DNA from: a virus
Virus record (IMG/VR): IMGVR_UViG_3300032304_002060
Coordinates: 1-25,280 of that record
Strand: one strand, 5' to 3'
Length of the DNA stretch: 25,280 nucleotides
The notes beneath the pieces were generated by a model that was not told the origin of the DNA, did no database searches, and was given only the letters and a program-made list of their open reading frames with translations. Of the stretch, positions 1 to 14,789 are shown piece after piece. A program made the position numbers and the translations under genes. Positions within the stretch are counted from its first letter, which is position 1; the number at the start of each line of letters is the position of its first letter.

Positions 1-53
1 CTTTGATCGCTGGCTAACGGTACTGTTAGTTTTGTTAATGAGGCTGTTGCCAT
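1..53 (-). CDS. Probable tail tube protein (gp19-like), 5' end only
   Basis: Only the first 17 codons are inside the window; the gene continues past position 1. The visible N-terminus is MATASLTKLTVPLASDQ. The ATG (53-51) is preceded by an AGGAG Shine-Dalgarno about 8 nt upstream and a late-promoter-like CATAAATA, so the start is well supported. The assignment rests mainly on position: in T4-like phages the tail tube gene follows the tail sheath gene, and the sheath is immediately upstream here. The tube protein polymerises inside the sheath and forms the DNA channel. Too little sequence is present for independent family recognition; another small virion protein is possible. Confidence 0.55.
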   Translation of the reverse strand, partial: MATASLTKLTVPLASDQ

Positions 54-77
54 TTGTTTATTCTCCTGATATACGTT

Positions 78-85
78 TATTTATG
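78..85 (-). promoter_or_regulatory. Late-promoter-like element of the tail tube gene
   Basis: CATAAATA on the minus strand, one mismatch from the T4 late consensus TATAAATA, 24 nt before the ATG at 53. It lies between the sheath stop codon and the tube gene, so tube mRNA could be made independently of sheath mRNA. Confidence 0.55.
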
Positions 86-93
86 GCGTTTGA

Positions 94-123
94 GCCAGAC
101 AAAAATTTGGGTATTTGTCTGGC
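94..123 (-). other. Perfect 10-bp hairpin between sheath and tube genes
   Basis: GCCAGACAAA (94-103) and TTTGTCTGGC (114-123) are perfect inverted repeats around a 10-nt loop. On the minus-strand transcript the hairpin lies 6 nt after the sheath stop codon. No U-run follows, so it is not a typical intrinsic terminator. It could protect a 3' end, be a processing site, or only attenuate readthrough into the tube gene. Confidence 0.6.
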
Positions 124-129
124 GGTCAA

Positions 130-3100
130 TTACGCTGATGCTTGGGCAGCAATGGTTCCTGTGTTCTGAATACGCATTGGAATATAGATAAACTCCACAG
201 CTTTCACTGGTTCAATGGCAATGTCAACATACAGTTCGTTGGCGTCAATTGTAGCTGGCGTGTTGTTAGTAAGGTCACACACAACCAAGTAATCATACAG
301 ACCACGCTTGTTGACTAGGTCAATCATGAGTGCTGTGATCTGATTGGTAATTGCGCTACGAGTAATTGTATCATTTGGCTCGAACAAATATTGGTTACCA
401 ATAATTTCCAAGCGTCCACGAATAAATGCTACCAAACGTGCCACGTTGATACGATCCAACGCTGTAGCTGTACCTTGTAAGGTGTGGTTACCAAAGTTAG
501 TAATGCCTGTGCCTGGAATGAATGTGATTGGGTTTACATTGTTAGAATATAACACATCACGCAGGCCTTGATTTACACCTAGCGGCTGGAATTCACCAGT
601 CTGAGCTTGTAAATAACCAATTTGTAGTGCATTATCTACTACGCCACGGCGTAAGCCAGCAGGTGCAAACCATGGATAAGCAACACTATCGCTACGGATA
701 ATTGTACGCAACATCATGTGACTCGGTGCTGTAACTACCACATTTCCTGTTAGATCTGTTGTGGTGCAACTTGGATAAAACGCTGCTGCATATGCATCAC
801 CGCCAGCTAAATTACCATCACCTGTGGCAAGGCCTAGACCATTGTTATTAGTAGCCCAGGTTACCACTTCATCTGGTGTCAAACGTAGAGGAGTATCAAC
901 TACACTAAACGAAGTCTCACCACGATCGTTGTTGAGTACCACCATGTTGGGTGCCAACTCTGGGTATTGTGGGCAAGCAATCAAGTTGTATTGTGCTTGG
1001 TTTTCACGCAGTTGTGTACTTGTGTCAATAGCTACCCTCAGTGCCTGTACAATTAATGTACGCTGAGCTTGACGCCCCATGTTAGGGCTGCCATCTGCAC
1101 GATTACCTGATGCTGTTAACCAAGTGTCAGTTTGATTAGGCAACACCGCTGGTGATGGATAGTCAGTTGAATTGAAATAGTTGACCTGGAATGATTTTAC
1201 GTTGAATCCTGATCTACGTGTGTTGAACAACAGGATACCTTCTGGATATAAATCTGGATTTGGTGCATCGAGATCCAAGTAGTCGCTGGTGATCAACGGC
1301 GTTGATCCTGTGGCAATTGGTGGAATAGGATCTGTAATTGGGTTAGTCGTGCCATTAGGTGCCCAGCGTGCATCGGCAAATAATACGCCATTGATTGTGG
1401 TCTGATCAGCGTTGTTGATTGTAACCCACTGATCTTCACCGTTTACTTGTTCCCAACGACTGATTATTGGATAGTTTTCTAAATCTGCTGTGTCAATCCA
1501 TAAATCACCGTAGGCCAATGGGCTTTCTGCGTCATCAGTCTGTGTGGTTGGTGCTGTGGCACTGAATATAGGGCCTGCGGCGTTGGTTAGACTCAAATCA
1601 TATCCACGCACATCATTTGTGACGTTTTGATATCCAACCCAGTCACCGTTGTTCTGAATCATGATATCAGCTGTTGTAGCATCACTGTAATACCAATATG
1701 TGCCATTTGTTGGGTCAATGTTTGGTTGACTTGCAGACGCTGTATAGGTGAATGTTGGAGTGCCAACCCAGTTACTAAGTGTTAATCCACTGCCATTCAC
1801 GTCAGTTTGACGAATACCTGTCACTGATGTTGTGAAGCCGGCATCAGCCAATGGTGTGTTAGCGCCGTCAACTAGATATATGTCTCCACCTGTGGCATGT
1901 GTAAAGAAAATTTGCCCTGCTTCGTTAACATCGGCGCTGACATTTTCAACCCCTGCGGCACTTACAGCGGCCACAAAATCAGCACTAGTAGTACCAAGGA
2001 TTGTAACTGTCACAGCGGCTGCCACTGTGGCTGTTTCTGGCTGAGTAGCGGCCAAGGTAAACGTAGAGTTGTTTACAAACACTGGCGTAGCGTCGCTACC
2101 AGTGATCACTGTGGCTCCAGGAGCCACTCGCTCAAGTATCAACAATCCTGATGTGGTATTGCTGTACGGGTCAATCTGTGCATAAGTAGTGCCGGCTGGA
2201 ATTGTTTGTCCACCTGATGTTGGATCTAGAGCATATAGGGCGGCAGCATCGTCGGCATATACTGGGCAACTTTGCAGCACAAATGTGCCCAAGGTGCTGT
2301 TGTAACGTTTGACCTGGATCAACATTCCTTGGTTAGGAGTGTTGGTTTGTTGGAACACACTGCCTGTTGGTTCTGGCTGTGTGTCTGTGGTGCGCCATCT
2401 TGGGGCGGAATAGTTTGGACCAGCAAAGTAAGCAGGAGCAGCATATTCACCAGTAGGGATACCTAATGTTGTCAAAGGTGTACCAATAGAGTTACTGATA
2501 GCAATAACACCTGTTCCTTCTGTGCTGCCGTCGTTGCTGGCTGTACTGTCTGCATACAAAGCTAATTTTCCACCAATACTAGCGGCATATACGCCATGAG
2601 CATTCATAACAGTATTAATTTGACCAGCTGCAACTGTTACGCTTCCTGATAAAGCAACAATATAATTATTGATATCAACTGATCCAGTAACAGTAGTAGG
2701 TGCTAATGTGCCTTGCACGGTGGGCCACGCTGTTTTCCATTCGTCGCTGCCAATTAAGACCCAGGTGTTGTACAGGTCACCAGCAGTGGCACTGTCTTGT
2801 AACCAGTTTGGTGCTTGAGCTGTAGTGGGTCCACCACGCTTGTAGTAGGTTGGATTGTACACGTTGGTTGCTGTGACCGCGTAGTCGCCGATACTGCCAT
2901 AGCTAGGCAAGGGTACTGTGCTTGCGGTTTCTAAAAATGTTGTGTCTGTAATGACACTAGGTGTTTTCTTAGTGAATGCAGATGTAGTTTGATTCCATTC
3001 CGTAATACCCCAAGTGGTGTTAGTAGTATCTAACCAGTAAGTGCCATTGGCAGGGGCGCCTACAGGACGAGTTAAACTGGCAGTAAGAGCTGCCAAGTCA

Positions 3101-3441
3101 ATGTCTGCCCGCATCACATAGGCAATATTAGTTACACCCAAGGCGGAATATCCAGCCAACAAGCCGTATTCATTGAGTTCGTATCCGTTGATTGGAGTAC
3201 CAGATGTGGTATTGTAAAAGAATGGAACACCAAATGTACTCAGCAGGTCTCGCTGACTGGTCATCAAATACAATTTGTTAGCATTAACTGCCAATGTTCC
3301 TGGAGCAATTCCAGTACCTGCGCCAGAGATTTTGTTCTCAGCAGTTACCAATAAAATAAATGGTACTGAGCTAGCGGCAGCGGGTGTGTAATTACTTTGG
3401 TCAATTACACTGACTTGTACACCTGGGGATAGTAAGGCCAT
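130..3441 (-). CDS. 18: Contractile tail sheath protein (gp18-like), with a large insertion
   Basis: 1103 aa. Sheath subunits form the outer contractile cylinder of the tail. The N-terminus (MALLSPGVQVSVIDQSNYTP) and C-terminus (starting near TALDRINVARLVAFIRGRLE, then FEPND, a KRGLYDYLVVCD stretch and a final YVDIAIEPVKAVEFIYIP strand) are typical of T4-like sheaths. T4 gp18 is 659 aa, so this protein carries some 440 extra residues, mostly between about residues 125 and 700. The extra part holds three Trp/Tyr-rich pieces with an NGTYW or YGDLW start (about residues 133, 580 and 643) and two alanine/glycine-rich beta-like modules. The ATG at 3441 has an AAGGA Shine-Dalgarno and a late-like box upstream. 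The frame is intact throughout. The sheath assignment is firm; the role of the insertion is unknown. Confidence 0.93.
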   Translation of the reverse strand: MALLSPGVQVSVIDQSNYTPAAASSVPFILLVTAENKISGAGTGIAPGTLAVNANKLYLMTSQRDLLSTFGVPFFYNTTSGTPINGYELNEYGLLAGYSALGVTNIAYVMRADIDLAALTASLTRPVGAPANGTYWLDTTNTTWGITEWNQTTSAFTKKTPSVITDTTFLETASTVPLPSYGSIGDYAVTATNVYNPTYYKRGGPTTAQAPNWLQDSATAGDLYNTWVLIGSDEWKTAWPTVQGTLAPTTVTGSVDINNYIVALSGSVTVAAGQINTVMNAHGVYAASIGGKLALYADSTASNDGSTEGTGVIAISNSIGTPLTTLGIPTGEYAAPAYFAGPNYSAPRWRTTDTQPEPTGSVFQQTNTPNQGMLIQVKRYNSTLGTFVLQSCPVYADDAAALYALDPTSGGQTIPAGTTYAQIDPYSNTTSGLLILERVAPGATVITGSDATPVFVNNSTFTLAATQPETATVAAAVTVTILGTTSADFVAAVSAAGVENVSADVNEAGQIFFTHATGGDIYLVDGANTPLADAGFTTSVTGIRQTDVNGSGLTLSNWVGTPTFTYTASASQPNIDPTNGTYWYYSDATTADIMIQNNGDWVGYQNVTNDVRGYDLSLTNAAGPIFSATAPTTQTDDAESPLAYGDLWIDTADLENYPIISRWEQVNGEDQWVTINNADQTTINGVLFADARWAPNGTTNPITDPIPPIATGSTPLITSDYLDLDAPNPDLYPEGILLFNTRRSGFNVKSFQVNYFNSTDYPSPAVLPNQTDTWLTASGNRADGSPNMGRQAQRTLIVQALRVAIDTSTQLRENQAQYNLIACPQYPELAPNMVVLNNDRGETSFSVVDTPLRLTPDEVVTWATNNNGLGLATGDGNLAGGDAYAAAFYPSCTTTDLTGNVVVTAPSHMMLRTIIRSDSVAYPWFAPAGLRRGVVDNALQIGYLQAQTGEFQPLGVNQGLRDVLYSNNVNPITFIPGTGITNFGNHTLQGTATALDRINVARLVAFIRGRLEIIGNQYLFEPNDTITRSAITNQITALMIDLVNKRGLYDYLVVCDLTNNTPATIDANELYVDIAIEPVKAVEFIYIPMRIQNTGTIAAQASA

Positions 3442-3468
3442 AACTAATTCCTTTTTATTAATTAAAGA

Positions 3469-3476
3469 TATTTATC
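3469..3476 (-). promoter_or_regulatory. Late-promoter-like element of the sheath gene
   Basis: GATAAATA on the minus strand, one mismatch from TATAAATA, 27 nt before the sheath ATG. It is followed by an AAGGA Shine-Dalgarno, the standard arrangement for structural genes in this window. Confidence 0.55.
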
Positions 3477-3507
3477 GGTTATCTCAAAAACTATGGCGTA
3501 TCACTGC

Positions 3508-3520
3508 CCTTACGGTAAGG
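3508..3520. other. 13-bp palindrome in the divergent spacer
   Basis: CCTTAC-G-GTAAGG is a perfect inverted repeat in the spacer between the divergent sheath and HNH-like genes. On the plus strand it is followed by TTTTGTT. It could be a protein-binding site or a weak hairpin; the stem is too short to call a terminator. Confidence 0.35.
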
Positions 3521-3537
3521 TTTTGTTCTGAAAATTT

Positions 3538-3545
3538 GGTAAATA
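3538..3545 (+). promoter_or_regulatory. Late-like TAAATA element abutting the HNH-like gene
   Basis: GGTAAATA lies 5 nt before the ATG at 3551. With T4-late geometry (start about 6 nt after the final A), transcription would begin at or beside the A of the ATG. No good -35 box and no Shine-Dalgarno are visible. The core TAAATA matches the other late-like boxes; the first two bases do not. Confidence 0.35.
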
Positions 3546-3550
3546 TCACT

Positions 3551-3895
3551 ATGAGACCCATATGCCCAACCTGTAAACAACGGTCATGTGCGATAAATTG
3601 TTATCGCGATGACCAAGTATATTATCGTAGTCAGTGTGATTATTGCATCAGAAAGGGCCGTAGAATCAGACCGGCAAAACCACAATGGGAGTTGGCTGGA
3701 TATAAGAAAAAACCCACATGTGACCGATGTGGGTTTAGAGCCAAGTTTGCAGCTCAGCTGTTGGTGTATCATGTGGATGGTAATTTACACAACACCGGGC
3801 TTAGAAATTTAAAAACTGTGTGTCAAAATTGTGTGGTAGAAATTGCTAAGACTGATCTGCCTTGGACTGTTGGAGATCTTGAACCAGATGTTTAA
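3551..3895 (+). CDS. Small zinc-finger / HNH-like protein
   Basis: 114 aa, starting MRPICPTCKQ. It has four CxxC pairs (C5/C8, C29/C32, C57/C60, C91/C94) and an HNH-like core with H74, D76, N78, N81 and L87 (YHVDGNLHNT, then NLKTVCQNC). Known families with this layout are small zinc-ribbon HNH proteins, common in marine T4-like phages; some are nucleases, others may only bind DNA. The frame is open upstream to a TTG at 3536, but the N-terminus is natural at the ATG (3551), placing the first CxxC at residues 5-8. It is the only plus-strand gene in this part and its 3' end overlaps the convergent gp1-like gene by 50 bp. Nuclease activity is an inference. Confidence 0.75.
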   Translation: MRPICPTCKQRSCAINCYRDDQVYYRSQCDYCIRKGRRIRPAKPQWELAGYKKKPTCDRCGFRAKFAAQLLVYHVDGNLHNTGLRNLKTVCQNCVVEIAKTDLPWTVGDLEPDV

Positions 3896-4511
3896 TCTGG
3901 GCATAAAGATTATCTAAGCCGTCACTGTTGTTATCAATCACAGCATCAAACTCAGTGCCAATCCATCCTGTTTCACTGGCATGGATTCCGTAGGTTTCCA
4001 GCTGATTTTTGCTCAGGCGCCAGTTAATATTTTTATCCTGACCACGATTTACCGTTTCAGCTAGCTCATACCAAACAGGCTCTGGACCACGGGTAACGCG
4101 AATAACTACGCCGCCAGCATTACGGATTGCTCGAATTTCATTAGGAAAACGACAGTCGCTAATCACTACATCATCTTGTGTTTTACGTAGTTTGTTTTCT
4201 AGGCTGGCAATCCAGATATCGTCGTGAAAGCTTCTGCGGGCAACTTCTGTACCCCATACTTGTAACACATAGCGGGGAGTCAAATGCGGCATGTTCAAAC
4301 GTTCTGACCACCATGGATCCACTTGTTCACGCCACTCACGACTTTCTCTAGTGCGTCCTTCGATTAGCTCACGGTCCCATCCAAACACGCAGGCAACTGC
4401 ATCTTTGAGTGTGTGAGCAAAACTTTCTCTACGGAACTGATGAATATTTTGTAGGTAGTCTGCTATGGTATCTTTACCACTTCCAATCAATCCACAAATA
4501 CCAATAATCAT
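3846..4511 (-). CDS. 1: Deoxynucleoside monophosphate kinase (gp1-like)
   Basis: 221 aa. It is expected to phosphorylate dNMPs to dNDPs for phage DNA synthesis. Residues 4-15 form a P-loop (GICGLIGSGKDT, K13), followed by the ADYLQ helix and an FAHTLKDAVACVFGWDRE segment typical of T4 gp1-type kinases. Further on are a YVLQVWGTEVARRSF segment and a strand ending VVISDCRFPNE, probably the acidic Walker-B-like region. The ATG overlaps the stop of the DexA-like gene (ATGA, 4508-4511), and AAAGGA lies about 8 nt upstream, so the two genes are probably translated from one mRNA. The last codons overlap the convergent HNH-like gene. In T4, gene 1 also lies beside a tail gene (gene 3). Confidence 0.88.
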   Translation of the reverse strand: MIIGICGLIGSGKDTIADYLQNIHQFRRESFAHTLKDAVACVFGWDRELIEGRTRESREWREQVDPWWSERLNMPHLTPRYVLQVWGTEVARRSFHDDIWIASLENKLRKTQDDVVISDCRFPNEIRAIRNAGGVVIRVTRGPEPVWYELAETVNRGQDKNINWRLSKNQLETYGIHASETGWIGTEFDAVIDNNSDGLDNLYAQIKHLVQDLQQSKADQS

Positions 4512-5032
4512 CTCAATTCCTTTACATTCAGGTGCCGTAATGTGGCCTGTAACATGTCAATTTGTCGACGACAATCTTCTAAAGCATGATGGCTGGTGGC
4601 GGGCTTAGGCAATTCGGGCCATAAGCTGTAGATAGTTCTTGCATCACGCACATTGTAAAACTGCCATGGCAATGCTTTGCCATAGCTCTTGTAAGCATGT
4701 TCAAGAATGTTCATATCATAGGTAGGACCGTTGGCCCAGATAAACTTGTGTTGCCAGGCCAGCTTGTACAGGCTATCTAGAGCCTGATTTAAATCTATAC
4801 GACCTTCCTCCATAAATGCTTCGGCTTGTGCTTCAGGTTGAGTGGCCCACCAGTCGATAGTGTCTTGTTGTATAGTTCTGTCTTCTTGACTTTCAAGGGT
4901 GATGCGGGCATAGTATTGTCGGTCGTAATAACCCAACCCAAACGGGTCAAAGCTCTGAGCTGCAATGGTCAAAATAGTGGCATCAGGACCAGTGCCTAGT
5001 CCTTCAATGTCGATCATTAGTGATGTGCTCAT
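4508..5032 (-). CDS. dexA: DEDD-family 3'-5' exonuclease (DexA-like)
   Basis: 174 aa. The DnaQ/RNase T-type exonuclease motifs are visible: Exo I with D8 and E10 (LMIDIEGLGTG), Exo II with D106 (WANGPTYDMNIL) and Exo III with H148/H149 and D153 (SHHALEDC). The WW after DTID near residues 61-62 also fits T4 DexA-like proteins (227 aa in T4). Likely role: degrading single-stranded DNA ends during phage DNA metabolism or host DNA breakdown. No Shine-Dalgarno precedes the ATG at 5032. Instead a sigma70-type -10 box ends 6 nt upstream, so the mRNA may be leaderless. A second Met (residue 6) just before the first Asp is an alternative start, with a 15-nt leader. A strand-specific RNase T-like role cannot be excluded. 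Confidence 0.85.
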   Translation of the reverse strand: MSTSLMIDIEGLGTGPDATILTIAAQSFDPFGLGYYDRQYYARITLESQEDRTIQQDTIDWWATQPEAQAEAFMEEGRIDLNQALDSLYKLAWQHKFIWANGPTYDMNILEHAYKSYGKALPWQFYNVRDARTIYSLWPELPKPATSHHALEDCRRQIDMLQATLRHLNVKELR

Positions 5033-5049
5033 GCTAAGATTATAGCATG
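5030..5049. repeat. Inverted repeat across the DexA-like start codon and -10 box
   Basis: CATGCTA (5030-5036) and TAGCATG (5043-5049) are perfect 7-bp inverted repeats around a 6-nt centre. One arm contains the start codon and the centre contains most of the -10 hexamer. It could be a repressor site or a coincidence of the promoter sequence. Confidence 0.5.
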
Positions 5050-5067
5050 ATTTTTGGACAAAGTCTA
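5039..5067 (-). promoter_or_regulatory. Sigma70-type promoter with extended -10 for the DexA-like gene
   Basis: The -10 is TATAAT (5044-5039), preceded by TGC (extended -10). A 17-bp spacer separates it from TAGACT (5067-5062), which matches TTGACA at 4 of 6 positions. Six bases separate the -10 from the ATG, so the predicted +1 is the A of the start codon. Confidence 0.65.
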
Positions 5068-5074
5068 GAGAGCG

Positions 5075-5845
5075 TTAGCCGATTACCCAGCTGAGTGGCT
5101 GACTACCGTCAACATAGTTCTTGAGTTCTTCAACCAATTTATCCATAGACACTTGTGCTTCAGTTTTCATGGCTGCACCGTTTAAAGTTCCGCCGCCTTG
5201 TGGGCCAGCAATGGTTCCAAACTTTTCACGTGCCTCACCAATGATCAATTTACAATTGGCAGTCATGTAGTCGCGGATCCATTGTACAATTTGGAAATCG
5301 CTTAGGAGATTGAATTCTGGTTTGAGATTGTAACACCAGAGTAGTACTGCTTCGCCTGTGCCTTTTGGGTCGCGGATCAGTTGCAGTTTCTTTGTGACTG
5401 GATTAAATGTGTAGTTCATGTAGGCGCCAAACATGCGTCCAGCCAATTCCACATACTGACTGTAAAAGTCATAGGTAGCAAGACCGCCAGCCACATTGAA
5501 GTTCATGAGATACACGTTCATGCTGGCTTGACTGAATGGATCAAAGTTACTTGCAAATGGTCCAGTTGAGTCGCCAAACGTTCTACGGAAAATCTGGCGC
5601 ACTGTTTGTACTTCTTGTGGCATGTCGTAGATATTGACATTAGTAACCAGCTCCATGAAGATGTAACTTTCTTCATAGGCGTTTTGTGCTCGTTGGCGAT
5701 ATACGCCAATGGTACGTTGATAAGCCGCTTCGTAGTGCTCGGCATCCAGCTCAATATCAACAATTTGATCGCCTAGTTGTAGACGTACATAATCGATAAG
5801 ATTTTGTTTTAATGTATCTAAGCTGGATTGATTTTCTAAGGCCAT
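5075..5845 (-). CDS. Neck / head-completion protein (gp13-like)
   Basis: 256 aa. The N-terminal region (LIDYVRLQLGDQIVDIELDA, then an EAAYQRTIGVYRQRAQNAYEE helix) has the pattern of T4-like neck proteins and other head-to-tail adaptors: a short helix, a conserved 'LG..V..IEL...' strand, then a long helix ending in acidic residues. These proteins sit between portal and tail and close the filled head. T4 gp13 is 309 aa. Context agrees: gp14- and gp15-like genes follow within 2 kb, though on the other strand. The ATG has a GGAG about 10 nt upstream and a late-like ACTAAATA. The number 13 is the likeliest assignment, but another connector protein is possible. Confidence 0.65.
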   Translation of the reverse strand: MALENQSSLDTLKQNLIDYVRLQLGDQIVDIELDAEHYEAAYQRTIGVYRQRAQNAYEESYIFMELVTNVNIYDMPQEVQTVRQIFRRTFGDSTGPFASNFDPFSQASMNVYLMNFNVAGGLATYDFYSQYVELAGRMFGAYMNYTFNPVTKKLQLIRDPKGTGEAVLLWCYNLKPEFNLLSDFQIVQWIRDYMTANCKLIIGEAREKFGTIAGPQGGGTLNGAAMKTEAQVSMDKLVEELKNYVDGSQPLSWVIG

Positions 5846-5868
5846 GTAAGGGAGCTCCGTGTTCCCTG

Positions 5869-5876
5869 TATTTAGT
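5869..5876 (-). promoter_or_regulatory. Late-promoter-like element of the gp13-like gene
   Basis: ACTAAATA on the minus strand, 23 nt before the ATG at 5845 and just after the stop codon of the upstream 381-aa gene. It would give the structural gene its own late transcript, separate from the sigma70-type promoters upstream. Confidence 0.5.
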
Positions 5877-5879
5877 AGT

Positions 5880-7025
5880 TTACCAAGCCCAAAGTATGAT
5901 CAAGTTGTCGTTGCCGCGGCCGTTAAATTTAGTTTCTGTGGCTTTGATTTCTCCAAATGCCTTGCGGGCCGCTGGTTTTCCACCACCTGTGACTGCTTTG
6001 ATTTGCTCAGCTGGTTTGCGGAGTGTTTTTTGTACTGTGGTCAATGCGTCAAACCCTACAATAGCACTGCCTTTTACAGTAAATGTACCAATGTGACTGT
6101 CGGCCATAACATGAATCAATCGGCGTTTAGACGTGTCATACAACCAGGCTTCGCTGGCACCAACCAGTTTAGTAACTGGTTCACTTTTAAGTTTAAGCTC
6201 ATCGAACTCTCGTAGGAATTTAAATTTACGACTTAATTTTTCTGCACTTACCGCTTTCTTGGCACGTGGTTTGCGTTCTACTTTTTTAAGCTGGACATAA
6301 CTGTTGCAGTCGTTGATCACAGTTTCGCAAAATTTTACACAATTACGAAGTTGTATTTTTGTAAGGTGGCTGTAGCCTTCTACTAGGTCAGCGTCGGCAC
6401 CTTCTAACACTTCGTTGAATTCGGCCAGGCGCAATTCCCAAACAGCCGACACAGTCCCAATCATGTTGGGACTGATGTTCATGCCACGCATGAGTTTGAT
6501 TGGACTAAAATCTGCACTCATCTTTGCGCCGGTTACTACAAAATCATCAAACATGCCTTCAAGTTCACCACAGCACTCTGAGACTTTTTCGCGCAGATGA
6601 TCTTGTATTGTGAGCTTTGCCACAGCCGTGTCAGCATCTACTTCACTTTGTGCTCGTTTGACTTCTTGTTTAGATTTGAGCATGGCACGAATTTGTTCGT
6701 CAACAATACTTTGCTCGTGTTCGTTGAGCACAAGACCTAATAATGTCATACGACATACCCATGCTGGTGTAAGACGAATTTGACTGTCTGGAATGCCACG
6801 CATGGTCTTGGCGTCCACTTTGCGACCGTTGTGCTCTAAATAATGGCACAACATTTCCTTAGCATCTTTTTTACCGTAGTGATAGTTGTACCACTGAAAC
6901 GCATTGGCAAGACTGCTGATGCGATTTGTTTCATCGGGTTGGAATTTCCACTCAGGTTCAAAACCCACATATTTGGTTTCAGCACCCTTGGGGTTTAGTC
7001 TTTTGATTTCGTTTGATTTAGCCAT
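5880..7025 (-). CDS. Conserved phage protein of unknown function, 381 aa
   Basis: Function not recognised. The first ATG (7025) gives MAKSNEIKRLNPKG; the frame is open a further 12 codons to a TTG at 7061, but a sigma70-type promoter lies within that stretch and predicts a start at the ATG. The protein is soluble, with no signal peptide or membrane segment. About residues 1-65 contain an FQWYNYHYGKKDAKEML motif. Residues 110-150 are charged and probably helical. A basic linker (VERKPRAKKAVSAEKLSRK) lies near residue 260, and the C-terminal third is beta-rich with basic patches (KTLRKPAEQ, GGGKPAARKAFGE). The basic linker could suit nucleic-acid binding, which is only inference. T4-like phages of aquatic bacteria carry similar proteins, as far as I recall. 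It follows the 83-aa gene closely. Confidence 0.75.
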   Translation of the reverse strand: MAKSNEIKRLNPKGAETKYVGFEPEWKFQPDETNRISSLANAFQWYNYHYGKKDAKEMLCHYLEHNGRKVDAKTMRGIPDSQIRLTPAWVCRMTLLGLVLNEHEQSIVDEQIRAMLKSKQEVKRAQSEVDADTAVAKLTIQDHLREKVSECCGELEGMFDDFVVTGAKMSADFSPIKLMRGMNISPNMIGTVSAVWELRLAEFNEVLEGADADLVEGYSHLTKIQLRNCVKFCETVINDCNSYVQLKKVERKPRAKKAVSAEKLSRKFKFLREFDELKLKSEPVTKLVGASEAWLYDTSKRRLIHVMADSHIGTFTVKGSAIVGFDALTTVQKTLRKPAEQIKAVTGGGKPAARKAFGEIKATETKFNGRGNDNLIILWAW

Positions 7026-7032
7026 AGTCTTT

Positions 7033-7061
7033 ATTGTATAGTAAAGTTTGGGTAAGGTCAA
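7033..7061 (-). promoter_or_regulatory. Sigma70-type promoter of the 381-aa gene
   Basis: TTGACC (7061-7056), a 17-bp spacer, then TACAAT (7038-7033): each hexamer matches consensus at 5 of 6. Only 7 nt separate the -10 from the ATG at 7025, and no Shine-Dalgarno is present, so the transcript should be leaderless or nearly so. The -35 overlaps the stop codon of the upstream 83-aa gene. Confidence 0.7.
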
Positions 7062-7309
7062 CCAAGTAAACTAGCAAAGGTTATATGTTGTTCTAAATTG
7101 GTTAACAGATCGGCTACTTGTTTTACCAACTCACGGTAACGCGGTGTTTCTTTGTGCAATCTACGACATTCTACACTTTCCATATCTGCGGCCACAATAG
7201 CTTGATCCACTGCCCGTGTCATTTTAAGCAGATCGCGGCGAGCTATCTTGTTTTTAACTGTAGCAATCTGCTTTTCAGCCCGATCTAATCTTTGAAATAA
7301 CTCGTCCAT
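7058..7309 (-). CDS. Small helical (coiled-coil-like) protein, 83 aa
   Basis: Unrecognised. It begins MDELFQRLDRAEKQIATVKN and is rich in Glu, Lys, Arg, Leu and Ala with heptad-like spacing, so it is probably a helical hairpin or short coiled coil; there is no membrane segment. The start is supported by a near-perfect sigma70 promoter ending 6 nt before the ATG. No Shine-Dalgarno is visible. It is the first gene of a minus-strand block with the 381-aa gene and may be an early or middle product. A regulatory or host-interaction role would fit its size but cannot be shown. Confidence 0.7.
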   Translation of the reverse strand: MDELFQRLDRAEKQIATVKNKIARRDLLKMTRAVDQAIVAADMESVECRRLHKETPRYRELVKQVADLLTNLEQHITFASLLG

Positions 7310-7315
7310 TTTGTA

Positions 7316-7344
7316 ATTATACTGGCTTTTGAATTCATAGTCAA
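7316..7344 (-). promoter_or_regulatory. Near-consensus sigma70 promoter of the 83-aa gene
   Basis: TTGACT (7344-7339), exactly 17 bp, then TATAAT (7321-7316): the best promoter in the window. Six bases separate the -10 from the ATG at 7309, placing the predicted +1 on the A of the start codon. It shares a 57-bp spacer with the late-like box of the divergent gp14-like gene. Confidence 0.78.
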
Positions 7345-7351
7345 TCTAACC

Positions 7352-7359
7352 GCTAAATA
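7352..7359 (+). promoter_or_regulatory. Late-like element abutting the gp14-like gene
   Basis: GCTAAATA, the same octamer found upstream of the 648-aa fibre gene, but only 7 nt before the ATG at 7367. T4-late geometry predicts a leader of about two bases. No Shine-Dalgarno precedes the ATG. Confidence 0.45.
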
Positions 7360-7366
7360 CACGACT

Positions 7367-8719
7367 ATGCCACGCTTATCGCTCTATCGCCCTAATAGAA
7401 CCAATGATTACCAGTTTTTGGATCGTACCATATCCGAAATGTACACAGTTGGCGGACTTGATATCTACGTCCACAAGTATCTGGGCCCGCAGGGCGCCGG
7501 TACAGACAACGGCAATAATGACGCTACTATTCCGAACTACAACAGTACCAATCCTTTGTTTATCGAGGATTTGTTGCTGTTGGAAAACCGTGATAGAGTT
7601 TATGCACCTGACGTTTTTGTCATGCGTGGTGTGTATCGCACACAAGACGTAGATTTTGATTTAACACAATTTGGTTTGTTTTTAAACAACGATACCTTGT
7701 TTGTTACCTTTCACTACAACGACATGATTGACACGTTTGGTCGCAAGCTCATGAGTGGTGATGTAATTGAAGTACCAAATCTAACAGATTATCATCCCTT
7801 GGACAATACCCTGGTCAAGAGTTTACCACGCTACTATGTAATACAGGACGCCAACTTTGCATCAGAAGGATTCAGTGTTACTTGGTTGCCGCACCTGTGG
7901 CGTATCAAGGCCACCCCCATGGTCAATGCTCAAGAGTACAGCCAGATCATCGACCAACCGTTCATGCCAGAAAATATTTGGGATAATGGAAATTTTTATC
8001 CAGCTGGTACCATTGTCAACTACGGCAACACTTATTATCAGGCTTCACAAAATGTACCGGCTGGTACTGATATTACCAACACTGCATACTGGACTATCAT
8101 TACCAATCCTGACACAGTGGGCGACAAACAAAGTACTAGACCTAAGGATTTGGCCATCAACGATGCCATACTTACCCAGGCCTATCAGGATGTGCCCTTG
8201 TCGGGCTATGACAATGTTAAATTTTATATTTTGCCTACCGGGCCCAATGATGAGCCTAGCTCAGCTGGTCTCACCGCCGATGACACGTTTCCTACAGTAG
8301 ATGGCACACAAACAGGCGAGGGTATTAGTCCCAAAGGGTTTGGCTATGTCCAAGGTTACTTGACAGGGTCTACTCATGCTCCTAATGGCTTACCAGTTAC
8401 ACCCGGAGTGGCATTTCCACCAAATCCAGTACTAGGTAATTATTGTTTACGCTTAGACTATTTCCCCAATCGTTTGTTCAGGTACGACGGACGAGTCTGG
8501 GTGGCCATCACAGACAATGTACGCACTGATCTTGACTACGCAACGCAATCACTTACCCAGAGATCCAGTTTTGTAAACAACACCTATACAGTACCTACTA
8601 CAGATCAAGGCAACATTCCTAGTCGGCAGAGTCTTAGTGAGATATTGGAACCACAGCCCGACAACGGCAATCAAGGTGGTAATATCACACCGGCCAACCC
8701 AAGACCACCAGGACGCTAA
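7367..8719 (+). CDS. Neck protein (gp14-like) with a C-terminal carbohydrate-binding-like module
   Basis: 450 aa. Neck proteins join the head to the tail. The first 190 residues show the T4-like gp14 pattern: a Tyr/Gly segment (ISEMYTVGGLDIYVHKYLGP), FDLTQFGLFLNNDTLFVTF, then GRKLMSGDVIEVPNLTDYHP and a WLPHLWRIKATPM strand. T4 gp14 is 256 aa; the extra length is C-terminal. About residues 205-245 (starting NIWDNGNFYPAGTIVNYGNT, then YYQA and a late YW) resemble a CBM5/12-type module. Residues 290-385 contain another insert with FRYDGRVWVAIT. The end is Pro/Asn/Gly-rich. The ATG has no Shine-Dalgarno but gives the expected N-terminus. The stop overlaps the next start (TAATG). Confidence 0.75.
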   Translation: MPRLSLYRPNRTNDYQFLDRTISEMYTVGGLDIYVHKYLGPQGAGTDNGNNDATIPNYNSTNPLFIEDLLLLENRDRVYAPDVFVMRGVYRTQDVDFDLTQFGLFLNNDTLFVTFHYNDMIDTFGRKLMSGDVIEVPNLTDYHPLDNTLVKSLPRYYVIQDANFASEGFSVTWLPHLWRIKATPMVNAQEYSQIIDQPFMPENIWDNGNFYPAGTIVNYGNTYYQASQNVPAGTDITNTAYWTIITNPDTVGDKQSTRPKDLAINDAILTQAYQDVPLSGYDNVKFYILPTGPNDEPSSAGLTADDTFPTVDGTQTGEGISPKGFGYVQGYLTGSTHAPNGLPVTPGVAFPPNPVLGNYCLRLDYFPNRLFRYDGRVWVAITDNVRTDLDYATQSLTQRSSFVNNTYTVPTTDQGNIPSRQSLSEILEPQPDNGNQGGNITPANPRPPGR

Positions 8720-10134
8720 TGGCACAATTTTTCTACGATCAACAATTACGTCGTTTTTTACTACAGTTTGCTAGAGTGTTCAGCAACTTTGACGTTGAAT
8801 ACGGTGCCAATCAAGCTGGGCAAGGTCCTGGAAGTGAAGCGGATACATTGATACGTGTGCCAGTACGCTATGGTGATGCTAGTCGTCAAGCTCAAACTAT
8901 TTTACAGAACAATTCAGCCAATGATATGCCAGCAACGCCGTTGATGACATTTTATATTACAGATTTAAAATATGATCGGCCAAGAATGCAGGAACCGTAC
9001 TTTGTAAACAACATAGCAGTGCGCCAACGAACCTACGATACGGCCACAGACACATATGAAACTACACAGGGCAATGCGTTTACTATTGAACGTGCCATGC
9101 CTGTACCTTACGAGATGACTATAAATCTTGACATTTGGACATCAAATACCAATCAAAAAATGCAGTTGTTGGAACAGATTCTAACTTTGTTTAATCCTGG
9201 ATTGGAAATACAAAGCACCGACAACTATATCGATTGGACCAGTTTGACTGTGCTGTATCTCAAGGATGTGCGTTGGTCTAGCAGAACTATTCCTGTTAAC
9301 GCAGACAATCCCATTGATGTTGCTACTTTATCGTTTACCTTGCCTATGTGGATTACGCCGCCGGCCAAGGTCAAGAAACTGGGTGTTATTGAACGCATCA
9401 TTGCCAGTGTGTACGATGCTCAAGGTGATCTTACCAATGCCTTAACCGACAGTGATTTGTTACTGGGCACAAGACAACGATTTACACCCTACGGTTACCA
9501 GGTGTTGTTGATTGACAACAAATTGCAGGCATTACGCCAGCAACAGGTTATTGATGAATCAAATGCCAGTTTAGTTCCACCAGATAGTCCTGACAGTAAT
9601 CTGTTGTGGCACAGTGTGGTTAACTTATATGGCGCATTGCGCCCCGGTATTAGCTACGTCACATTAGAACAACCAGATGGTACAGACGTAACCGGCACTG
9701 TGGCCTACGATCCTACTGATGATAGATTTTTATTGTTCACTGTAAATGCTGGCACTGTGCCCCCAAACACGCTAGACCCAATTAATGCTGTTATTGATCC
9801 CATTGCTAGCGGACCTGGGGCAGGACTTGCTGTGGCTGCACTAGGGCAAAGGTACTTGTTTACACAGGCTACAGGATCATATGCAAATCCAGGACTAACC
9901 AACCCAGATTCTTGGTCTGGTACAGACGGACAACCGTTAGTAGCACATGCCAATGACATTGTGGAATACGATGGCGATCGTTGGGCTGTGGTGTTTGACA
10001 GCGCCAGCAGTCCTGCAAACATGCAGTACGTAACCAACATCACCACAGAACTACAATATCGCTGGACTGGTACAACATGGGTCAAAAGTTATCAAGGGTT
10101 ATATCCAGGAGGACAATGGACACTGGTATTGTAA
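8719..10134 (+). CDS. 15: Tail sheath stabiliser / completion protein (gp15-like)
   Basis: 471 aa. T4 gp15 (272 aa) caps the sheath and joins the tail to the neck. Residues 1-240 fit this family well: FFYDQQLRRFLLQFARVFSN, then a VPVRYGD motif, ERAMPVPYEMTINLDIWTSN, the EIQSTDNYIDWTSL motif and LPMWITPPAKVKKLGVI. About 200 extra residues follow, with FTVNAGTVPP, a DGDRWAVVF strand and a final YRWTGTTWVKSY ... GGQWTLVL; these Trp/Tyr-rich pieces recall those in the sheath and gp14-like proteins. The start overlaps the gp14-like stop by one base, with AGGA upstream, suggesting coupled translation. The 3' end overlaps the Nudix gene by 19 bp. Confidence 0.85.
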   Translation: MAQFFYDQQLRRFLLQFARVFSNFDVEYGANQAGQGPGSEADTLIRVPVRYGDASRQAQTILQNNSANDMPATPLMTFYITDLKYDRPRMQEPYFVNNIAVRQRTYDTATDTYETTQGNAFTIERAMPVPYEMTINLDIWTSNTNQKMQLLEQILTLFNPGLEIQSTDNYIDWTSLTVLYLKDVRWSSRTIPVNADNPIDVATLSFTLPMWITPPAKVKKLGVIERIIASVYDAQGDLTNALTDSDLLLGTRQRFTPYGYQVLLIDNKLQALRQQQVIDESNASLVPPDSPDSNLLWHSVVNLYGALRPGISYVTLEQPDGTDVTGTVAYDPTDDRFLLFTVNAGTVPPNTLDPINAVIDPIASGPGAGLAVAALGQRYLFTQATGSYANPGLTNPDSWSGTDGQPLVAHANDIVEYDGDRWAVVFDSASSPANMQYVTNITTELQYRWTGTTWVKSYQGLYPGGQWTLVL

Positions 10135-10556
10135 CAGCAGTAGGTGTTTGGTTTTACGCAATCAACACTAGACGATATCTATATCTCATGCGTAACGACC
10201 CAAAACATCCTGGAGCTTGGGGATTGCCTGGTGGAAAAGTAGAAGCTGGCGAAACCTTGTTAGCTGCTATGAATCGTGAATGCACAGAAGAAATAGGATT
10301 TGTTCCTGAATATTTTAGGATGATTCCATTAGAAAAGTTTACTACTTCAGACGCAGGATTTGAGTATCACACTTTTTTCTGTATTGTTGACTATGAATTC
10401 CAACCCACGTTAAACGATGAACATATAGGCTATGCCTGGATTGACTCGGGCACTTGGCCTCGTCCAATGCACCCAGGCCTATGGAGCACTGTGAATTTTG
10501 AAGCAGTACAAAACAAAATTTTAACTATTGAATCTACCGTTCAAACGTCGCAGTAA
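10116..10556 (+). CDS. Nudix hydrolase
   Basis: 146 aa. The complete Nudix box is at residues 40-62 and fits GX5EX7REUXEEXGU exactly (GKVEAGE, then seven residues, RECTEEIGF). The preceding AWGLPGG is also typical. Nudix enzymes hydrolyse nucleoside diphosphates linked to another moiety; the substrate here cannot be read from sequence (damaged dNTPs, NAD-like compounds, ADP-ribose or mRNA caps are possible). The ATG at 10116 is chosen because AGGAGG lies just before it; an ATG at 10077 is in frame but lacks a Shine-Dalgarno and would overlap gp15 more. The 3' end overlaps the convergent 220-aa gene by 16 bp. Confidence 0.9.
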   Translation: MDTGIVTAVGVWFYAINTRRYLYLMRNDPKHPGAWGLPGGKVEAGETLLAAMNRECTEEIGFVPEYFRMIPLEKFTTSDAGFEYHTFFCIVDYEFQPTLNDEHIGYAWIDSGTWPRPMHPGLWSTVNFEAVQNKILTIESTVQTSQ

Positions 10557-11203
10557 CCAATAAAGTCTCGATAGGTCATAGTCTGTGTGTTGGCACAATT
10601 GACCCAATCATCGGGCATGCGAGTGGATTCTCCAACTAGATAAAATTTAGTGCCTGTGTATGCGGCAAATATGTTGGCAATTTGTTGAACCCACTCATTG
10701 TGTCCACCTGCGGTTTCATCTGTGTAGCCCAGCATGAATATTTCTTTGTGACCGTCAAATGCCGCAAGATATACCACGGTAGCTAGGTCAACTATTCTGG
10801 GTCGCAAAGGAATTAGATAAAATTCTCCTGGATGAGTAATACAATAGCGTGGACTGGTGTACACAATGTTGTTGGTTTGATAGCCAGTTTCTAAAATTTT
10901 AAGTAGATTATCAGCGTTAGTTTCTACCGCAAAGTCCAGACGCATTTGTTGAGCAATATTGCCGGTGCCATAGGTCTGTAATTTTTTGCTGCCCAACAAT
11001 CCGCCGCGATGGCGTTGTAGTATAGTGTAATTAAAATGTGCGCGGTCTAAGGCACTACCAATACAGGCCGCACGTCCACTGAGATGATGGTTGACAATTG
11101 GATTATCAATCCATTCGCGAGTTTCAGATTTTTTACCACCGGACCACTTGGTCTCAAGGATTACAAACTCACCAAGATAGTCAGTTCGATATCTGGCATC
11201 CAT
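10541..11203 (-). CDS. Conserved phage protein, possible Rossmann-like fold, 220 aa
   Basis: Function not established. The N-terminus (MDARYRTDYLGEFVILETKW) leads into a REWIDNPI motif, GRAACIGSALDR, QRHRGGLLGSKKLQTYGTG and a late strand KEIFMLGYTDE. Proteins with these motifs occur next to tail-fibre genes in marine T4-like phages, as far as I recall. The 'FMLGY' strand mirrors 'YLLGFD' in the 195-aa gene at the other end of the fibre cluster, so both may share an MptE/DUF115-like alpha/beta fold, perhaps acting on sugars or nucleotides; this is inference. The ATG overlaps the stop of the 413-aa fibre gene (TAATG), indicating co-translation. No signal or membrane segment. Confidence 0.7.
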   Translation of the reverse strand: MDARYRTDYLGEFVILETKWSGGKKSETREWIDNPIVNHHLSGRAACIGSALDRAHFNYTILQRHRGGLLGSKKLQTYGTGNIAQQMRLDFAVETNADNLLKILETGYQTNNIVYTSPRYCITHPGEFYLIPLRPRIVDLATVVYLAAFDGHKEIFMLGYTDETAGGHNEWVQQIANIFAAYTGTKFYLVGESTRMPDDWVNCANTQTMTYRDFIGYCDV

Positions 11204-12444
11204 TAAATCCTGCCTACTGCTATTTCGATTGTGCCCACTGTTTCAGAGTCGTATGCTTCTAAGGCTTTGCCAATAATACACCCAGGTTGATATTGTGACA
11301 TGTCTAACCGTGTGGCAACGCCAGGTGTTGAACTAGCAACTAATCGATCACCCTTGGCAATGGTGCCAACCACATAACATGGAACTCGCCCAACCAAGGC
11401 CACTTGTACAGCATTAACGCAAGTAAGTGTGCTGTTCATCAGGTAGCTGGGATTTGTACTCACAATACCGGCTACCCGAGTACTGTGTGAAGTTACTGTA
11501 GCAGTAACTTCTTCAGTTCCTCCAAATTCAAGCACAGTACCAGGAGTGTATTCTGCATCGGCACAATACATCTCTGCCAAGTCAGCGTATTGTGCCGAAG
11601 TTGCTTTGGCAAATATGGTATTATAGCTCAATGTGGCACTGCCAATGTTGGCTGTGGCATTGGCTGTTGGCATGATATTAGCACCAGTATTGATATTTCC
11701 AGTACCGTTAGGCGACAATGTGATATTACCATTGCTGGTTGTAATAATGGTCAATGGCCCTGTATCAACAATGTTACCATAAACTATCAGGTTACCAGCT
11801 GAAACGTTGCCAGTTAGTCCAGCGTTGACGTTACCACCTGTAATATTGCCGGTTGCTGAAATCAATCCACCTGTTAGGATATTTCCACCAGATACGTTGC
11901 CACTGGCACTTACTGTGGCGCCTGTGATAGCACCAGTTACACTAACACTACTGCCAGTCATTACGCCGCCGACTACACTTGCGGCTGTTGTAGTGCCAGT
12001 AACACTAGTGCTTGATCCGGTTATGACTCCACCAACTACACTTGCGGCTGTTGTAGTGCCAGTAACACTAGTGCTTGAACCGGTCATTACACCACCAACT
12101 ACACTTGCGGCAGTTACAGCGCCAGTGGCACTGATTAATCCAGTAACTGCCAATCCACTTGAATAGGTGTTTGTAATTGTGCTGCCGCCCACGTTGGCAC
12201 GAATATTTCCACCACTGGCAATCACTGCCACACTACTTGTTCCGTTGGTAATTGAGTTGGCACTTAAAGACGAAATCTGGGCTGTTACGTAACTTACTGT
12301 GGCAATGTTACTGCCGCCAGGTGTGATAGCATCATGCACCCGCAAGGTTCCGTTGGTGGTGTCCACCGTGATTTCAGCTAATGCGCCAGTAAATGCTAAA
12401 TTTTGTGCATTGGTTCCGCGTCTGTATTGTACTTGTGAGGCCAT
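11203..12444 (-). CDS. Tail fibre-like protein with conserved C-terminal domain, 413 aa
   Basis: The N-terminus is MASQVQYRRGTNAQNLAFTG, typical of T4-like aquatic phage fibres ('YRRGT... F.GA..E...DT'). Residues 80-270 are low-complexity Ser/Thr/Gly/Val/Asn sequence, probably a trimeric beta-structured shaft, including three 21-residue repeats (AASVVGGVITGSSTSVTGTT type). The last 140 residues form a distinct domain beginning FAKATSAQYADLAEMY and ending GKALEAYDSETVGTIEIAVGRI, shared with the 1445-aa protein. A 117-bp stretch is almost identical to that gene. The ATG has AGGA and a CATAAATA late-like box. It probably takes part in host recognition; which fibre it corresponds to is unknown. 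Confidence 0.82.
   Translation of the reverse strand: MASQVQYRRGTNAQNLAFTGALAEITVDTTNGTLRVHDAITPGGSNIATVSYVTAQISSLSANSITNGTSSVAVIASGGNIRANVGGSTITNTYSSGLAVTGLISATGAVTAASVVGGVMTGSSTSVTGTTTAASVVGGVITGSSTSVTGTTTAASVVGGVMTGSSVSVTGAITGATVSASGNVSGGNILTGGLISATGNITGGNVNAGLTGNVSAGNLIVYGNIVDTGPLTIITTSNGNITLSPNGTGNINTGANIMPTANATANIGSATLSYNTIFAKATSAQYADLAEMYCADAEYTPGTVLEFGGTEEVTATVTSHSTRVAGIVSTNPSYLMNSTLTCVNAVQVALVGRVPCYVVGTIAKGDRLVASSTPGVATRLDMSQYQPGCIIGKALEAYDSETVGTIEIAVGRI
11759..11875 (-). repeat. 117-bp near-identical block, copy 1 (pair at 15403-15519)
   Basis: This stretch matches 15403-15519 at 115 of 117 positions by eye, in the same frame and strand. It encodes LISATGNITGGNVNAGLTGN followed by a VSAGNLIVYG strand in both fibre genes. 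Flanking sequence is clearly less similar. Confidence 0.85.
11938..12126 (-). repeat. 63-bp tandem repeat, three units (413-aa fibre gene)
   Basis: Three in-frame units with exact 63-bp spacing (same anchor at 11972, 12035 and 12098). Units 1 and 2 share at least 44 identical consecutive bases. Each unit encodes 21 residues of the AAS.VGGV.TGSS.SVTG type. Confidence 0.85.
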
Positions 12445-12461
12445 TTTAATTTCCTATATGC

Positions 12462-12469
12462 TATTTATG
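12462..12469 (-). promoter_or_regulatory. Late-promoter-like element of the 413-aa fibre gene
   Basis: CATAAATA on the minus strand, 17 nt before the ATG at 12444, followed by AGGA. It contains the TAA stop codon of the upstream 617-aa gene. Confidence 0.55.
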
Positions 12470-14318: not shown

Positions 14319-14332
14319 TGTGGTTCCCGTAA

Positions 14333-14349
14333 TGACTAATATTTAGTCA
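14333..14349. other. Palindrome around the late-like box of the 617-aa gene
   Basis: TGACTAA-TAT-TTAGTCA is a perfect 7-bp inverted repeat. It contains ACTAAATA (minus strand 14347-14340), 21 nt before the ATG at 14318, and directly follows the U-run of the terminator of the upstream 109-aa gene. The box is the likely late promoter; the symmetry may be incidental. Confidence 0.5.
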
Positions 14350-14373
14350 AAAAAATAGGACTCAATGAGTCCT
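14349..14373 (-). terminator. Intrinsic terminator after the 109-aa gene
   Basis: On the minus strand AGGACTC-ATT-GAGTCCT forms a 7-bp stem with a 3-nt loop, followed by A and seven Us. It lies 24 nt after the stop codon at 14397. Confidence 0.75.
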
Positions 14374-14396
14374 CTTTTGAGCAGATACATTATTCC

Positions 14397-14726
14397 CTAA
14401 TATCCCTCAAAAGTATAAGATAATCCAGGCTGGAATAATCCGCCGCTTACTATTGGGTAAACCGAGTCAGCATCTTGTGGAACACTGAGTACTGGAACAG
14501 TGGCAGTACCACTACCAAAATCACCGGTGGCTGTCCAATTTCCGTTGTTGCCATTGGCTGCAAAGTAATCCCAACCCGGTATGCCCCTGTTTAACACAGC
14601 AAAGAAAAGTCCTTGAGTGCTAGGGCTGCCGCCAACGTTTTGGCCAGTGGCCGTGACAATAGTGGGACCACCATCTATCGCCCAACCTGCGCCTATGCTC
14701 CATCCTGCACCTATTGATACTGTCAT
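14397..14726 (-). CDS. Small Gly/Trp-rich virion-type protein, 109 aa
   Basis: Not recognised. The N-terminus has a short tandem repeat (SIGAGWSIGAGWAIDGGPTI), followed by a segment with GIPGWDYFAANGNNGNWTATG and the C-terminus GLFQPGLSYTFEGY. There is no signal peptide or membrane helix. Aromatic and glycine content and position among fibre genes suggest a virion component, perhaps a fibre tip or connector. The ATG has only a weak ribosome site (AAAG about 10 nt upstream). It sits between two intrinsic terminators and has no clear promoter, so it may depend on readthrough. Confidence 0.62.
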   Translation of the reverse strand: MTVSIGAGWSIGAGWAIDGGPTIVTATGQNVGGSPSTQGLFFAVLNRGIPGWDYFAANGNNGNWTATGDFGSGTATVPVLSVPQDADSVYPIVSGGLFQPGLSYTFEGY

Positions 14727-14741
14727 AATGTTCTACTTTGC

Positions 14742-14772
14742 AATAAAAAGATAGGGCCCGGAGACCCTATCT
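14742..14772 (-). terminator. Intrinsic terminator after the 1445-aa fibre gene
   Basis: AGATAGGG (14749-14756) pairs with CCCTATCT (14765-14772), a perfect 8-bp stem with an 8-nt loop. On the minus strand it is followed by UUUUUAUU. It lies 17 nt after the stop codon at 14790. Confidence 0.85.
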
Positions 14773-14789
14773 GTTACAGTGTTACCTGT

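Follow-up and report, generated by a model that had tools for sequence, protein, structure and literature searches.

Sigma70-type and T4-type late promoters predicted to yield leaderless mRNAs in a lineage of uncultured T4-like phages

Promoters and start codons in the window

The window (the whole 25,280-nucleotide stretch analysed, positions 1 to 25,280 of IMG/VR record IMGVR_UViG_3300032304_002060) carries three minus-strand genes with sigma70-type promoters directly before predicted leaderless starts. The g83 gene (7058–7309) is an ORF of 83 residues with a weak match to phrog_28063. Its promoter (7310–7344) reads TTGACT-17-TATAAT followed by a 6-nt discriminator (TTGACT at 7344–7339, TATAAT at 7321–7316 and ATG at 7309), and the predicted +1 is the A of the ATG (7309). 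The g381 gene (5880–7025; 381 residues, phrog_11903) is preceded by TTGACC-17-TACAAT and a 7-nt discriminator (7026–7061; TTGACC at 7061–7056, TACAAT at 7038–7033 and ATG at 7025). The TGA stop codon of g83 (7060–7058) sits inside the −35 element of g381. The third gene, dexA (4508–5032), encodes a DexA-like 3′–5′ exonuclease of 174 residues (PF16473, E = 6.9e-34; phrog_255); its promoter (5033–5067) consists of TAGACT-17-TATAAT with an extended −10 (TGC) and a 6-nt discriminator (TAGACT at 5067–5062, TATAAT at 5044–5039 and ATG at 5032).

The promoter letters and spacings reported for these genes in the first-pass annotation are present exactly, and g83, g381 and dexA all lack a Shine–Dalgarno (SD) sequence. 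The three promoters match 10–11 of the 12 hexamer positions and have a 17-nt spacer, which fits the host sigma70 arrangement with −35 and −10 elements 16–18 nt apart. In each case a TANNNT −10 box ends 5–8 nt before the start codon, as in the TA-led genes that were predicted to be leaderless in cellular genomes (Zheng et al., 2011; PMC3160421). The three rank within the seven best promoter-like sites of window positions 1–15 000. The total number of such sites in the same interval is not above that of shuffled sequences (33 versus 30.3), and the evidence therefore lies in position and conservation rather than in number. The contention that most nearby structural genes do have an SD holds roughly (a simple SD test is positive for about 10 of the 17 other genes in the window), but it fails for the structural gene starting at 7367.

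That gene (7367–8719, plus strand) encodes a 450-residue virion structural protein (phrog_11591) and is separated from g83 by a divergent intergenic region of 57 bp (7310–7366), in which back-to-back sigma70 and late promoters leave no space for leaders. The core CTAAATA (7353–7359, plus strand) corresponds to a T4-type late promoter, with a TATAAATA-like core and no need for a −35 element; the predicted +1 is A7364, which would give a 3-nt leader (ACT) and a near-leaderless late start. This gene, SD-less and with a late promoter at a similar distance, was overlooked in the first reading.

Conservation of the starts among orthologues

Orthologous upstream regions mostly retain the layout: 67 of 68 distinct regions for g83, 57 of 73 for g381 and, at a threshold of 9/12 hexamer matches, 66 of 85 for dexA, where the remainder mostly have a weaker −35; shuffled upstream regions of the three genes show it in only 1–2% of cases. 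The late start is similarly constant: orthologues of the gene at 7367 have a late core at d = 5–7 (where d is the number of nucleotides between the −10 or late core and the start codon) in 61 of 62 distinct intergenic regions, and the intergenic length between g83 and this gene is 57–58 bp in 85 of 95 relatives.

It could be asked whether the promoters are real but translation or transcription in fact starts at other positions, giving leadered mRNAs. The gene caller does choose a downstream ATG (codon 6) for dexA. The pattern of codon variation argues against such a displacement: codons 2–4 of g83 vary synonymously across 67 orthologues, codon 2 of g381 appears as GCT, GCA or GCC, and codon 2 of dexA as AGC/AGT and GAC/GAT. 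Since codons 2–4 of all three genes change synonymously, the assigned ATGs are taken as the true starts. Moreover, five relatives have an in-frame g381 start 21 nt upstream and the promoter has shifted along with it as TACAAT-6-ATG. We consider displaced starts to be very unlikely. In 11 other relatives g381 has a promoter with a leader, and an SD is then also present; the lineage thus shows genes switching between leaderless and leadered starts, with g381 occurring in both states. Start-finders that rely on the SD misplace leaderless starts, and the layout therefore matters for gene calling.

Two promoter classes in related contigs

Seven related IMG/VR contigs (1,619 genes), five of them large, were surveyed. 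Sigma70-type promoters form a sharp peak at d = 6 and a separate leadered hump at d = 28–32. Exactly d = 6 is found for 29 genes and d = 7 for six (1.2 expected from shuffles for both), and each of the five large contigs alone exceeds all 100 shuffles. In the leadered promoters, the seventh base downstream of the −10 tends to be A; in the predicted leaderless class, which comprises 43 genes, this position is the A of the ATG. Weak −10-like matches also form a spike at d = −2, which fades at a stricter threshold and which we take to reflect the letters of the ATG. Of the lineage orthologue pairs, 126 of 215 keep the layout, compared with none of 132 pairs with cultured phages.

Chance matches in A+T-rich upstream DNA would be in keeping with the unremarkable total of promoter-like sites in the window. 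Conservation among orthologues and the position enrichment, which far exceeds shuffles in each large contig, led us to reject this explanation as vanishingly improbable, in agreement with the first-pass annotation, which had judged the three matches unlikely to be accidental.

The layout had been described as a host-sigma70 trait of non-structural genes. This description is too narrow, as T4-type late promoters show it in more genes (109 versus 43), structural genes included. Across the seven contigs, a late core lies 4–8 nt before the ATG in these 109 genes, among them portal and baseplate genes, and the arrangement is kept in 230 of 307 lineage orthologue pairs, compared with none of 60 pairs with cultured phages. 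Base 5 is A in 92% of the d = 7 sites and base 6 is A in 88% of the d = 8 sites, so that the implied leaders are 0 or 3 nt and rarely 1–2 nt. All five of the large relatives, the genomes covered by this search, encode a homologue of the late sigma factor gp55 (E = 4.5e-8 to 5.6e-7).

SD sequences are associated with leadered genes in both classes: they occur in 0/43 predicted leaderless versus 64/91 leadered sigma70-type genes and in 2/109 versus 83/124 late genes. When one member per orthologue group is counted, the values are 0/23 (sigma70 leaderless), 0/55 (late leaderless) and 78/118 (leadered). All 152 leaderless genes start with ATG; non-ATG starts number 0/152 in this set versus 86/1467 among the others (p = 0.0004). 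A-richness after the ATG is only slightly higher (0.42–0.46 versus 0.39–0.41) and is not a distinctive trait.

Eleven cultured T4-like phages contain three sigma70 and eight late sites in total, where the seven contigs have 43 and 109, and T4 itself has no late site at d = 4–8 by the same method. The scan against shuffled upstream regions, which the first-pass annotation had proposed, is thus strongly positive in the relatives and negative in cultured T4-like phages. The closest cultured relatives (33–51% identity by gp15, sheath and portal), the jumbo phages Wroclawvirus PA5oct and Atu_ph07, differ from the lineage in having essentially only leadered promoters. As the nearest cultured relatives did not fix the layout, the lineage offers a test bed for the benefit of leaderless initiation.

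These comparisons also bear on genome compaction, in which promoters would adjoin start codons to save space and read-through mRNA would be the main template, translated through coupling or non-SD initiation. The genomes are 92–96% coding by gene calls, and the spacer between g83 and the structural gene is merely 57 bp. Compaction nevertheless appears very improbable to us, given that cultured T4-like phages have almost no such sites, that sigma70 distances hold to 6 instead of ranging over 0–20, that the SD is missing from every sigma70 case and that the late class avoids d = 6 and uses 4, 5 and 7.

Interpretation of the layout

Conservation, position enrichment and the absence of SD sequences strongly support, in silico, the proposal that the promoters are placed to yield leaderless mRNAs. 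The g83, g381 and dexA promoters are very probably real and of the host-sigma70 type, with transcripts expected to start at the A of the ATG and to be translated as leaderless mRNAs; g381 (d = 7) and many late genes (d = 7–8) may have very short leaders instead of none. The exact +1, recognition of the 5′-AUG in translation and the purpose of the layout are what we infer beyond the sequence itself. The data are best explained by a lineage-specific leaderless architecture, spanning early and late classes, in uncultured, mostly freshwater T4-like phages. Leaders would measure 0 or 3 nt in some of the early genes, mostly for DNA metabolism, and in a larger late set of portal, baseplate and other virion genes.

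Related arrangements are known. The TA-led bacterial genes (PMC3160421) are similar in having a TANNNT −10 about 12 bp upstream, in lacking an SD and in exceeding dinucleotide shuffles, but they are cellular; here the layout belongs to a phage lineage and involves T4-type late promoters besides sigma70 boxes. The λ cI mRNA (PMC9031893) starts at its AUG and relies on 5′-AUG recognition, as predicted for the lineage; cI, however, is a single leaderless gene. Leaderless phage mRNAs are known mainly as such single cases, whereas this common lineage appears to have fixed the layout in two promoter classes that are unrelated to each other, with between several and about 40 such genes on each contig. 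If so, regulation in these phages can be deduced from their sequence down to the single base. T4 late transcription (PMC2988020) shares the TAAATA core, the gp55 homologue and the absence of a −35, but T4 late promoters are placed about 17–29 nt before the start codon, so that their mRNAs have a leader. We found no report in the open-licence literature of a phage lineage with the layout in both promoter classes.

As to purpose, we tentatively prefer promoter-gated translation, in which the message for an SD-less gene would be the short transcript begun at that gene's promoter, and long read-through RNA would not serve. If such a gene is read only from its own transcript, its expression window would be set by its own promoter class. 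The advantage early in infection that had been suggested cannot account for late genes with an identical layout.

Host adaptation is a possible alternative reading of the purpose alone: the host would translate leaderless mRNAs well and the lineage would have taken over the habit, with no gating. The frequency of leaderless genes does vary among host groups (about 20% in the Actinobacteria; of 71 β-proteobacteria, only 9 showed them; PMC3160421), and the trait spans the lineage and both promoter classes. Against this, the cultured relatives ACP17 and V45v66, which have β-proteobacterial hosts, do not show the layout, and the majority of genes in the lineage genomes are not leaderless. The host hints are weak: the closest bS21 genes (55–58% identity) are from Burkholderiales, Neisseriaceae and Proteobacteria MAGs, faintly suggesting a β-proteobacterial host, and the tmRNA tag ends in DETFALAA.

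A dedicated leaderless channel throughout infection seems rather unlikely. The phage would here shift host ribosomes to 5′-AUG initiation, and the 0- or 3-nt leaders shared by early replication and late virion genes would separate phage messages from SD-led host mRNA and from its own read-through RNA. The appeal to modified ribosomes in the first-pass annotation is unsupported; genes for bS21 and initiator-type tRNAs are carried by some members of the lineage and also by layout-free cultured relatives. Phage bS21, present in two of the five large lineage contigs, was rejected as the cause because PA5oct also has it without the layout. Initiator-type tRNA-Met (C1xA72, judged by eye from ARAGORN sequences) is present in contigs G002 and G005, with similar tRNAs in PA5oct, OC and others, and was likewise rejected.

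RNA structure around the starts limits the case for promoter-gated translation. Hairpins that hide the ATG were rejected as a general device: start-site inverted repeats are in modest excess in the sigma70 leaderless class (16% with arms of at least 6, versus 4% in shuffles) and not enriched in the late leaderless class, and read-through RNA is predicted to occlude the ATG only slightly more on average (0.63 versus 0.54–0.56). At dexA, an inverted repeat (CATGCTA...TAGCATG; 5029–5050, minus strand) covers the −10 and the ATG. Of 55 distinct orthologues, most preserve the pairing; the repeat is mostly invariant, with only two double changes. The repeat would mask the ATG in read-through RNA and be missing from the leaderless RNA, which fits promoter gating. 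In the T4 genes e, soc, 49 and I-TevI (PMC3014915), with which dexA may be compared, the promoter lies within the hairpin region, and the start is free in the short transcript and hidden in the long one; these short transcripts retain an SD, whereas dexA, with its putative hairpin, would retain nothing 5′ of the AUG.

Promoters and starts of the three window genes

The window, an IMG/VR record of 25,280 bases, belongs to a T4-like myovirus that encodes a gp15-like sheath stabiliser, a sheath, a dNMP kinase and a DexA-like exonuclease, and no close DNA match to it was found among deposited phages. The tail sheath (130–3441; 1,103 aa) far exceeds the usual sheath length and aligns with other jumbo-phage sheaths as two separate segments (∼63% covered), so that a long insertion is likely. 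A strong terminator-like hairpin (14749–14772, minus strand; 10 pairs, then TTTTATT) lies between the 1,445-aa and 109-aa genes, and a gene adjoining the tail genes (23699–24286) weakly matches a family of phage sialyltransferases (phrog_4603).

The first-pass annotation described three minus-strand genes, g83 (83 aa; 7058–7309), g381 (381 aa; 5880–7025) and the exonuclease gene dexA (4508–5032), as driven by sigma70 promoters in which the spacer is 17 bp and the −10 element ends 6–7 nt before an ATG that lacks a Shine–Dalgarno (SD) sequence; both letters and coordinates are correct. The total of promoter-like sites in window positions 1–15000 is not above that in shuffles, and the case must therefore rest on position and conservation. 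IMG/VR was scanned (80 loci each for g381 and dexA), and the layout was counted as kept with at least 9/12 hexamer matches, a spacer of 16–18 and 5–8 nt to an in-frame ATG. It is kept in 57 of 73 (g381), 66 of 85 (dexA) and 67 of 68 (g83) distinct upstream regions, compared with 1–2% of shuffled ones. Hexamers and distance are constant across the orthologues, with the spacer letters drifting. Codons 2–4 vary synonymously (GCT/GCA/GCC, GAC/GAT, GAA/GAG, AGC/AGT), and the annotated ATGs are therefore the true starts. In five relatives an in-frame ATG of g381 lies 21 nt further upstream, and the −10 element is shifted along with it, preserving the 6-nt distance. In eleven others (69–82% identical) a promoter of this kind is followed by a leader with a GGAG-type SD; among g381 relatives, neither leader nor SD occurs without the other.

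Early and late promoters in related contigs

Seven related uncultured contigs (64–344 kb) were analysed, with their 1,619 genes called from coding statistics alone, without regard to promoters or SD sequences. Sigma70 promoters (at least 10/12 matches) peak strongly just before the start codon, with 29 genes at 6 nt and six at 7 nt against 1.2 for both combined in shuffles, followed by 0–5 per position at 8–18 nt and a broad hump at 28–32 nt. In each of the five large contigs taken singly, the leaderless-type count exceeds all of 100 dinucleotide shuffles. The sigma70 leaderless genes mostly serve DNA metabolism (helicase, primase, SbcD-like nuclease, exonucleases and an endonuclease).

The T4-type late core VTAAATA is likewise two-peaked, with 31, 36, 7, 26 and 9 sites at 4, 5, 6, 7 and 8 nt, respectively, and 0–3 per position beyond this up to a leadered hump at ∼17–28 nt. 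At 7-nt sites A occupies base 5 after the core in 92% of cases, and at 8-nt sites it occupies base 6 in 88%; A is also commonest at base 5 in leadered late sites, which makes base 5 or 6 the most likely late +1. On this basis 67 late genes would most probably have leaders of 0 nt and 35 leaders of 3 nt; leaders of 1–2 nt are predicted rarely and appear to be avoided (distances 4/5 and 7/8 versus 6; pieces L144–L155, L164–L181, L182–L198, L199–L208 and L209–L218). A gp55 homologue is present in 5/5 large contigs. The late leaderless genes include those for the portal protein, a baseplate protein and virion structural proteins, and the limitation of the layout to host-sigma70, non-structural genes was thus mistaken, whereas the proposal that the three window promoters yield leaderless mRNAs is well supported by these sequence comparisons.

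Both classes meet in the window, where a 57-bp divergent spacer (7310–7366) separates g83 from a 450-aa virion structural protein gene (7367–8719, plus strand; late promoter and start CTAAATA-CACGACT-ATG) and holds both promoters back to back, early and late overlapping. Of 95 relatives, 85 have a spacer of 57–58 bp, and 61 of 62 distinct versions retain a late core at 5–7 nt; the spacer may act as an early/late switch.

No sigma70 leaderless-type gene in the seven contigs has an SD, and most leadered ones do. Because relatives share genes, the counts were redone with one member per orthologue group (INDEPENDENCE). SD sequences are then absent from the drawn members of all 23 sigma70 and 55 late leaderless groups, compared with 78 of 118 leadered groups and 219 of 634 others that have one. 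ATG is the start codon of all 152 leaderless-type genes, whereas a different codon opens 86 of the remaining 1,467 (p = 0.0004), in line with the AUG preference of leaderless initiation (PMC9031893).

Proposed mode of expression

Promoter placement, absent SD, exclusive AUG, conservation and lineage restriction are the observed basis of the leaderless reading. Transcripts would begin on the A of the AUG, or 3 nt before it in late genes with distances of 7–8 nt, and ribosomes would initiate at the 5′ AUG. The most likely use is that a gene would be translated only from its own promoter's transcript, since in read-through RNA a ribosome would find no recruiting signal upstream of the AUG. The dexA start lies within an inverted repeat (CATGCTA...TAGCATG) that would mask it in read-through RNA and be lost from the leaderless RNA, like the hidden start of T4 gene e (PMC3014915). 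The repeat is retained in most relatives with few double changes, and start-region repeats at other genes are enriched only modestly, so this masking step is tentative.

Restriction to the lineage

Leaderless mRNA is already known; judging by the open literature covered, the new element is a phage lineage that applies this layout, with leaders of 0 or 3 nt, to early and late promoters alike. The same method was applied to eleven cultured T4-like phages: T4, PA5oct, OC, Cr30, phiM12, S-PM2, BUCT-ZZ01, part of Atu_ph07, XaC1, ACP17 and V45v66, the last two with beta-proteobacterial hosts. The enrichment for which the first-pass annotation proposed a test holds for the seven contigs (43 sigma70 sites, with 109 late sites besides) but not for the cultured phages (three and eight in all), most of which do show the leadered humps. 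Orthologue pairs within the lineage retain the layout in 126/215 (sigma70) and 230/307 (late) cases; among orthologues from the first eight phages of the cultured set, the corresponding counts are 0/132 and 0/60.

The main rival concerns the purpose of the layout, namely host adaptation, and leaves the leaderless reading itself untouched. Weak hints point to a beta-proteobacterial host for the lineage, the metagenome sources of which we take to be mostly freshwater. Modified ribosomes, also suggested initially, are unsupported: neither bS21 genes nor initiator-type tRNA genes track the layout by their presence, and both were rejected as its cause. By eye, in translation, the bS21 gene lies directly 3′ of a ClpX-like gene in two jumbo relatives (L308 and L309). 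Initiator-type tRNA-Met (C1xA72) occurs in contigs G002 and G005, the former also carrying a cluster of up to 26 tRNA genes (L180, 10354–17602), and permuted tmRNA-like calls were made in four contigs (L151, L180, L191 and L211).
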